Assembly (NCBI GenBank): GCA_902802265.1
Contig: CADCLN010000003.1
Coordinates: forward strand, 1 to 64,000
DNA length: 64,000 nt
Source: an uncultured Bacteroidales bacterium
GTDB lineage: Bacteria > Bacteroidota > Bacteroidia > Bacteroidales > Bacteroidaceae
Direction of reading: 5' to 3'
Position 1 is the first letter of the stretch. Each line of letters opens with the position of its first letter. Shown one piece after another: positions 4,415 through 57,072 of this stretch. Under the pieces are notes generated by a model. That model was not told where the DNA came from. It did not search any database and saw only the letters and a program-made list of their open reading frames with translations. Position numbers and translations under genes: made by a program.

Positions 4415-4568
4415 GTCGGACTGCATTCCCGTTCCTGTGGGAGAACTTTGCTACTGCCGTGGGAGAACTTTGCTACTGCCGTGGGAGAACTTTGCTACTG
4501 CTGTGGGAGAACTTTGCTACTGTTGTGGGAGAACTTTGCTACGGCAATCAGAAAACTTTGTCGTCAAT
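4415..4568. repeat. 22-nt modular repeat array, locus 1
   Basis: Seven 22-nt units in register. Units at 4437, 4459, 4481, 4503 and 4525 are GTG, then core GGAGAACTTTGC, then a 7-nt spacer (TACTGCC or near variants). A degenerate unit follows at 4547. The unit before them (4415-4436) has a different core, GGACTGCATTCC. Both cores reappear in the array at 25234-25431, the first one there mainly in reverse orientation. The array is in the gene-free stretch 4360-4594 and ends about 27 bp before the promoter box of the TraX-like gene. Confidence 0.9.
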
Positions 4569-25233: not shown

Positions 25234-25431
25234 GTGGCTCTGCATTGCTGCTACCGTGACAAAGTTCTCTCGCTGCAGTGGCACTGCATTGCTGTTGCCG
25301 TGGCAAAGTTCTCTCGCTGCGGTGGCACTGCATTGCTGCTGCGGTGGCAAAGTTCTCCCATTGCGGTAGCAATGCAGTGCCAGTCGAGTGGCAAAGTTCT
25401 CCCACGGCAGCGGGAGAACTTTGCTTTTCCG
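25234..25431. repeat. 22-nt modular repeat array, locus 2
   Basis: Nine 22-nt units in perfect register. They alternate between core GCACTGCATTGC (units at 25234, 25278, 25322) and core GCAAAGTTCTC(T/C)C (25256, 25300, 25344, 25388). The unit at 25366 has the first core inverted (GCAATGCAGTGC) and the last unit, at 25410, has the second core inverted (GGAGAACTTTGC). Flanks GTG and a 7-nt spacer keep their orientation. The array ends 53 bp before the promoter box of the esterase gene. Confidence 0.9.
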
Positions 25432-25484
25432 GAGGTTTCGAAAGAAAAAAGGGATGTGATGTGTATGTTTCAAGAAAGTTTTTG

Positions 25485-25492
25485 TACCTTTG
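25485..25492 (+). promoter_or_regulatory. -7 promoter box for the esterase gene
   Basis: TACCTTTG, 36 bp before the ATG at 25529 and just downstream of the 22-nt array. Confidence 0.7.
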
Positions 25493-40915: not shown

Positions 40916-40925
40916 ATACCGACAC

Positions 40926-41040
40926 TTTACTGAAAACTTAAAACAACGCCGTCGTTTCTGAAAACAACGCCGTTGTTTATAGAAACATCGCCCTTGTTTT
41001 TAAAAACATCGACGATGTTTTAAGTTTTATGCCCAGTAAA
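40926..41040. repeat. Nested palindrome with four 21-nt palindromic units
   Basis: Four 21-nt units at 40940, 40961, 40982 and 41003. Unit 2 has AAACAACG-C-CGTTGTTT and unit 4 AAAACATCG-A-CGATGTTTT, each perfectly symmetric, with paired base changes between them. The tract is enclosed by a 12-bp inverted repeat (AAAACTTAAAAC at 40933-40944 with 41017-41028) and TTTACTG/CAGTAAA at 40926-40932 and 41034-41040. It lies in the gene-free stretch 40916-41211. Confidence 0.88.
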
Positions 41041-56953: not shown

Positions 56954-57072
56954 CAGCCGCAAAAGCAACATGGACAAGTCCTGTACGGCCAGCTCCTTGT
57001 GAATCCTCCAGGGCTTGACCGCAGCAAAGGCAACAGGTTGTAGCGGCGCGATGCAGTAAGCTTGTCCACCCC

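Follow-up and report, generated by a model that had tools for sequence, protein, structure and literature searches.

Short repeats dispersed between genes have been described in several bacterial groups. In the accessible parts of the reports concerned, REP and BIME elements are extragenic quasi-palindromic modules, mosaic in structure, present in both orientations and regularly spaced, mostly at tandem or convergent gene junctions; the REPs themselves are hairpins of 20-40 bp with a GTAG or CGTC tag, and protein binding (IHF, gyrase) has been reported (PMC2817692, PMC3733652, PMC6006769). PINSR, according to the available sections of its description, is a 188-bp repeat of the Prevotella intermedia/nigrescens group, present in 177-184 copies, reported without terminal inverted repeats and found mostly at places conserved between strains (PMC4755523). 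BrickBuilt is presented, in the accessible portion of the article, as a minisatellite MITE of Porphyromonas gingivalis that consists of 23-nt repeats without spacers and has small inverted-repeat ends (PMC4596501). The accessible parts of the literature searched contained no description of the cores reported here, or of a 22-nt array in Bacteroidaceae. In this study, we characterized such an array and its relatives in the genome of a gut bacterium. They are nearly certainly a clade-specific, dispersed mosaic repeat, non-coding and intergenic. Our best overall reading, to which we give a probability of roughly 0.5, is that the units of this repeat are phased protein sites, for which we infer binding from the pattern of the sequences.

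The window, i.e., the whole analysed stretch of 64,000 nt (positions 1-64,000 of contig CADCLN010000003.1), belongs to the genome under study (G000, 2.88 Mb); the genome of a sister species, Bacteroidaceae bacterium RGIG3754, is denoted G014, and extracted loci carry L-numbers. Direct reading and TRF revealed nine 12-nt cores, spaced at a period of exactly 22 nt (Table 1), of the types A (GCACTGCATTGC) and B (GCAAAGTTCTCC), starting at 25237, 25259, 25281, 25303, 25325, 25347, 25369, 25391 and 25413. Six of the nine are exact (A at 25281, 25325 and 25369; B at 25347, 25391 and 25413), with one mismatch at 25237 and 25303 and two at 25259. The modular 22-nt array with 12-nt cores in both orientations, as given in a preliminary description of this DNA, is therefore real by direct reading, by TRF and by a register-free gap test. 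Its further details hold in part: the plan of GTG, core and spacer applies to most units, but GTA stands at 25366 and GCG at 25410, and the strict alternation of A and B extends over eight units, but the last two are both B. The 10-nt linkers approximate YRCNGCNGYR and are near-palindromic in composition, which gives dyad centres every 11 bp. The linker 4/7 pair is complementary at a frequency of 0.244 in comparison to 0.362 expected; the linkers are thus without pairwise compensation, and their symmetry is one of composition only. Because of this composition, the unchanged orientation of the flanks, which had been noted for the units with reversed cores, says little.

Table 1. Positions of the repeat features and of a promoter-box-like sequence in the window.
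Feature	Position	Strand	Remark
22-bp array, nine 12-nt cores and 10-nt linkers	25237-25424		A+ B+ A+ B+ A+ B+ A- B+ B-
Core A, exact (GCACTGCATTGC)	25281-25292	+	second exact A+ at 25325-25336
Core B, exact (GCAAAGTTCTCC)	25347-25358	+	second exact B+ at 25391-25402
Core A, minus orientation; first core described earlier as flipped	25369-25380	-	corresponding unit is A- in 11 of 12 related arrays
Core B, minus orientation, last unit	25413-25424	-	fits the convergent plan; B- also ends 12 of 12 related arrays
TACCTTTG, promoter-box-like	25484-25491	+	lies between array and hydrolase gene
Second family array: a single diverged A+ followed by six B- (last diverged)	4418-4561		TRF and core reading

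The ORFs on either side of the window array are divergent; one of them starts about 390 bp away, and a hydrolase-like gene has its annotated start at a distance of 65 bp. Between the array and this gene stands TACCTTTG, which resembles the Bacteroides -7 promoter box (consensus TAnnTTTG). Good matches to the hydrolase were found in seven genomes including G000; by eye, the 700 bases upstream of the gene contained no A/B array in the six other genomes, where the gene order differs.

In the genome as a whole, we counted at least 74 array loci, comprising 65 extracted arrays, two more that were read and seven represented by model matches only. The 65 arrays analysed below are 63 extracted elsewhere in the genome and the two in the window, of which the one at 4418-4561 was absent from the preliminary description. 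The genome has 65 copies of exact B (34 plus, 31 minus) and none of the reversed-pattern control; for A with at most one mismatch, the count is 155 against 11 in that control. Arrays contain 4-10 units, with seven units in 33 arrays, and a long frame (stop-to-stop, at least 200 aa) crosses 3 of the 65. The flanking ORFs, called with omission of those overlapping an array, are in tandem at 28 arrays, convergent at 21, divergent at nine and unassigned at seven; the 11 intergenic gaps of the window (4 divergent, 4 convergent, 3 tandem) are too few to serve as a baseline. Seven of the 74 arrays lie within 300 bp of a contig end, where about one would be expected; therefore, they probably break assemblies of these genomes. 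The genes beside L002, L008, L016, L018, L033, L042, L045 and L056 encode related, secreted-looking proteins with INGDLNHNGDLDVDDVTLLIDGYLTG-like segments.

The spacing of the cores is rigid. In a count that presupposed no register, exact cores following one another at 250 nt or less in the 65 loci had 103 gaps between them, every one a multiple of 22; with one mismatch allowed, this applied to 237 of 238 gaps. An earlier register-bound tally gave 396 of 397 steps equal to 22; this value, like the phase count of unfiltered units, is partly built in because the array finder advanced in steps of 22 nt, with shifts of 1-2 nt as a fallback. All 168 exact cores of the 65 loci (103 A, for which the genome listing covered 100 places, and 65 B, the genome total) lie inside arrays, and no cores with at most one mismatch were found within approximately 90 nt outside an array. 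DNA uptake sequences are found as isolated copies scattered over a genome; an uptake-like sequence was set aside, as the exact cores stand in arrays and are not isolated. CRISPR was set aside by reading, since the units are adjacent and have no unique spacers, and phage or plasmid cargo was set aside because no match was found and no viral contig carries the pattern.

The core classes A and B were defined from the same data, and with mismatch-filtered cores the information content was 21.7 bits for A and 18.6 bits for B over 12 positions, as opposed to 8.0 bits over 10 positions for the linkers. In a set of 120 internal units to which no mismatch filter was applied (82 B and 38 A), A3, A5, G6, T8 and T10 are invariant in the B units and T7 is present in 81 of them; C4 and T9 are kept in 35 of the A units. 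The general plan of the arrays has plus cores on the left and minus cores on the right. For B cores with at most two mismatches, B+ precedes B- in 271 ordered pairs and follows it in 12, with 43 arrays purely convergent, none purely divergent, seven mixed and 15 in a single orientation. A cores lean convergent too (49 ordered pairs A+...A- vs 10 A-...A+), and in arrays with a clean B switch their orientation is mixed, with 28 A+ and 17 A- on the left and 17 A+ and 10 A- on the right.

To follow the family in other genomes, we used a model (R1) built from 37 of 39 B+/B- junctions, which detected the family in two of 45 genomes of the genus. At E ≤0.001, and with stricter filters at which weak matches are lost, it gave at least 110 matches in G000 and at least 47 in G014, both strands counted; the 43 remaining genus genomes gave no match. 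G014 originates from roe deer abomasum, and the proposal that core-spacer units should be sought in related genomes was rewarded there, as this sister species has the same cores. It contains 30 exact A cores among the matches listed and 97 with at most one mismatch vs 6 in the control, counts that may be inflated because of 7% contamination and two contigs with the same A-core spacing. Comparison of 28 G014 stretches (8 + 20) with the extracted G000 loci revealed homologous flanks beside arrays in both species for eight stretches, at 76-88% flank identity: L094-L045, L096-L040, L097-L058, L100-L057, L165-L059, L167-L002, L169-L010 and L182-L053 (G014-G000). In all eight pairs the number and order of units differ between the species. 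Five of the G014 arrays have readable B in both orientations (L094, L096, L100, L167, L182), with B+ before B-, and the remaining three are too diverged or without clear B-. The other compared G014 stretches yielded no further pair with arrays of the family on both sides. The end of the window was matched by L170 of G014; at the corresponding place G000 has, in L183, a 22-nt array of unrelated sequence, so that this place is no clean empty site.

Exact B alone is more widespread, being present in 27 of the 45 genus genomes, mostly once. Twelve stretches read from 10 of the 18 relatives, other than G014, with one or two exact B matches contained no such array. A BB pattern, searched in 399 genomes of the taxonomic family (34 of the genus, G014 not among them), matched only in G000. 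The pattern scan of the named-species collection returned 21 stretches, six of them RGIG3754 contigs and 15 single matches in other organisms, which we take as chance.

The arrays adjoin differing repeated modules, or leaders, named g1, g2 and g3. The g1 leader measures approximately 240 nt and has a sharp outer edge, with a short conserved tail in most copies; no terminal inverted repeats were found in nine elements with full or partial g1, the best complementarity of leader and tail being 6-10 nt. The g2 leader is about 250 nt long and carries a short word in direct and inverted copies, which differs between g2 copies and agrees within each. These words, of the GGTTCC, GTGACA, TGTGCC or GGGTCA kind, occur in the leaders of L002, L011, L026, L029, L042, L045, L056 and L062; g2 modules stand after unrelated genes, and matching pieces number 20 in this genome and one, of 21 nt, in G005. 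Relative to L002, L026 and L056, a 16-bp segment of L042 that is flanked by short inverted repeats has the opposite orientation, so small inversions do occur in these elements. The Y1_Tnp cut-off was passed by 14 of the 45 genus genomes, although only two of the 45 carry the family; two matches were obtained in G000 and none in G014, which is 84% complete and has arrays. Stretches around six Y1 genes contained no cores. A Y1 transposase-like gene with inverted repeats of its own lies at L154:4742-5239 (G000 C23), about 330 bp from an eight-unit B array.

Based on these observations, we propose that each 22-bp unit, composed of a 12-bp quasi-palindromic core and half a linker on each side, would be the site of a putative dimeric DNA-binding protein. 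The sites of an array would then follow one another at two helical turns and be occupied cooperatively, and the occupied array may act as a platform that organises the chromosome or insulates transcription. Units would be gained and lost by slippage, and new loci would arise by the spread of a non-autonomous element or through recombination among copies; no mobilising enzyme was found. The rigid spacing, the diverse linkers, the block-conserved cores and the lack of covariation between facing cores (see below) suggest that single sites are recognised in duplex DNA, and we put the chance that the units are phased sites and the array a protein platform at about one half. Conservation of the cores could, however, come partly from recent copying, and the 22-bp spacing could be due to the copying of whole units.

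The strong folding of the arrays also counts against the protein-site reading, as it would be expected of a structural element in which a convergent array folds, as RNA or single-stranded DNA, into a long hairpin that acts as bidirectional terminator, mRNA 3' stabiliser or cruciform. In comparison to shuffles, the 65 arrays fold with a mean z of -6.9, and the window array with -7.2 as RNA and -6.4 as DNA; the excess of convergent over divergent flanking ORFs has a two-sided binomial value of 0.043, and in B+/B- hairpins 85.4% of cells are paired in register, vs 36.5-50.7% when slid by 1-3 columns. However, arrays with randomly flipped cores fold equally well (mean z +0.38; 49% of arrays beat their own flips); therefore, the convergence is not explained by folding. 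Pairing of the facing B cores is also unchanged by shuffling (85.3%): when the 3' letters were exchanged among sequences, 247 of 500 shuffles paired at least as well, the covariation score was reached in 74 of 500, and one pair is broken in 25 of 36 sequences. This lack of covariation makes the cores look conserved one by one, and the hairpin as the selected unit was set aside on both grounds. The window array, moreover, sits between divergent ORFs and has no Rfam family at gathering score. Overall, a structural element is a doubtful alternative. Rfam searches across the window returned only tRNAs and the small SRP RNA at gathering score; the Bacteroidales small SRP RNA lies at 56965-57071, with a tRNA-Thr gene directly after it. 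At E ≤0.1, nine loci gave one tRNA and otherwise microRNA models below gathering scores over or near arrays, which we take as chance hairpin similarity; known RNA families were set aside. The arrays might also be functionless minisatellites, in which quasi-palindromic units, prone to form hairpins, multiply through slippage and template switching and are carried to other places by recombination. The 44-nt differences in copy number between related arrays, the turnover of units at homologous loci of the two species, the 16-bp inversion in L042, the 15 single-orientation arrays and the presence of unrelated 21-23-nt arrays in other genus members are all in agreement with such neutral growth. It is nevertheless rather improbable in view of how invariant and variable positions are distributed within B, the far greater diversity of linkers than of cores and the near absence of out-of-phase steps.

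The preliminary description had ascribed the reversed cores in the units at 25366 and 25410 either to site-specific flipping or to selection for symmetric protein-binding sites, and the second branch fits better. A- and B- are indeed read in these units. For comparison, we grouped 12 arrays by their common g1 leader (diverged in some) and added the window array, which is without this leader, because its unit order and several linkers match. The usual plan of the twelve is A+B+(A+B+)n A- B+ B- (B-); A+B+ copies of 44 nt vary in number between related arrays, and the window array has one such pair more than most. The slot of the window's A- contains A- in 11 arrays (one with a mismatch) and A+ in L060, and the last core is B- in all 12, so that both window 'flips' look inherited. 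The near-fixed polarity of B over the 65 arrays (271 vs 12) is likewise not what free inversion would give. The orientation of A does vary between identical linkers (L005 vs L033 and L004 vs L009, each at unit 3), and it differs at a homologous locus, with four A+ in L059 of G000 vs three A- in L165 of the sister species. Yet, in the frame GCANTGCANTGC, only positions 4 and 9 distinguish A+ from A-, and in L004/L009 a derived terminal T keeps its place while the orientation of A differs. With this end base static, the difference would be explained by an inversion of no more than the inner hexamer CTGCAT/ATGCAG or by two base changes, and matching units also contain one-step palindromic forms (L022 unit 1, L004 unit 5, L036 unit 3). 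Judging from these alignments, inversion of a whole core is not needed, and the family does not look like a flipping DNA switch. Invertible sites and shufflons are characterized by mixed orientations within one population and by a recombinase. Ongoing inversion of single cores of that kind is very improbable: besides the A+/A- differences, the rarity of forms of intermediate symmetry (35 of 38 unfiltered A units keep C4/T9) would favour it, whereas the two-base difference, the static end base and one-step forms, the B cores that hardly ever oppose the convergent plan and the common occurrence of the window's own 'flips' in related arrays argue against it.

Arrays of similar geometry and unrelated sequence were also encountered. 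When 20 stretches, each of 20 kb and together representing 16 genus genomes, were scanned for lags, 17 non-coding short-period arrays were detected; after removal of six with 7-nt repeats, eight of 11 had a lag of 21-23 nt, and four of the seven of these eight that were tested were symmetric. In a reverse-complement self-match test of 21 regions, chosen by eye from the scans, 10 had P <0.02 (window 25234-25431 and 40936-41020, L183, L208 with 21 nt, L209, L214, L223, L107, L158 and L157) and 11 were not significant, including L205, L208 with 23 nt, L221 and window 4435-4560 (P 0.25), which is a single-orientation row. The array at window 40918-41038 has a 21-nt period and quasi-palindromic, AAACAACGCCGTTGTTTTTA-like units unrelated in sequence to A/B, with a self-match of 0.75 vs 0.52 in permuted units. 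Just past the window, L183:633-803 (G000 C3) is a 22-nt array on TGGTAA/TTACCA words, and its sister-species counterpart is an A-type 22-nt array at L170:1901-2144. Further unrelated 21-23-nt quasi-palindromic intergenic arrays in other genus genomes are located at L214:4323-4429, L223:11830-11928, L208:914-1008, L107:1648-1789 and L158:6127-6257. The arrays elsewhere in the genus are a lead, a pointer and no proof. It is a tentative and rather speculative possibility that intergenic arrays across the genus conserve geometry and diversify in sequence, between species and also at homologous places, such that the sequence of 21-23-bp quasi-palindromic units turns over, the period and dyad symmetry persist, and a co-evolving DNA-binding protein sets the spacing.

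With at least 74 arrays in one genome, homologous arrays in a sister species, rigid spacing and clear modules, the family constitutes a natural experiment. It lends itself to a search for a protein that binds the units, to the question of a role of such arrays in chromosome organisation or transcriptional insulation, and to work on the growth and reorientation of small quasi-palindromic sites. According to our best reading, it belongs, as a variant, to the known kind of clade-specific dispersed intergenic repeats and is broadly like BIMEs, PINSR or BrickBuilt. To judge by the accessible parts of the descriptions, it shares with REP/BIME elements the extragenic quasi-palindromic modules in mosaic arrangement, regular spacing and both orientations, with high-copy palindromic units in alternating or opposite orientation at 74 loci or more, and a location mostly at gene junctions of the tandem and convergent types; it differs in its 12-bp cores at fixed 22-bp steps, in the lack of facing-pair covariation and in that no array-specific RAYT was found. 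A RAYT-driven REP was accordingly set aside for want of such an enzyme, though a Y1 gene and one of the arrays are separated by only about 330 bp. As for the REP tags, GTAG or GTGG often precedes a core and CGTC is found in some linkers, neither being constant. The likeness to PINSR, which is one of description and not of consensus sequence, and which refers to the available sections of that report, is that both are clade-specific, intergenic, amplified and non-coding, with 177-184 copies of PINSR in comparison to at least 74 array loci here (PMC4755523). BrickBuilt, in the accessible portion of its description, is similar in being multi-copy, intergenic and restricted in host range within the Bacteroidales, and in combining tandem short units (23 nt in BrickBuilt, 22 here) with a leader and a tail (PMC4596501). 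Tandem short repeats with conserved leader and tail at multiple intergenic places were found here as well, although terminal inverted repeats were absent from the g1 subfamily, in which they were sought. What sets the present family apart from BrickBuilt, as far as that portion of the article goes, are its two alternating cores, their occurrence in both orientations, the convergent plan and the use of several leaders.
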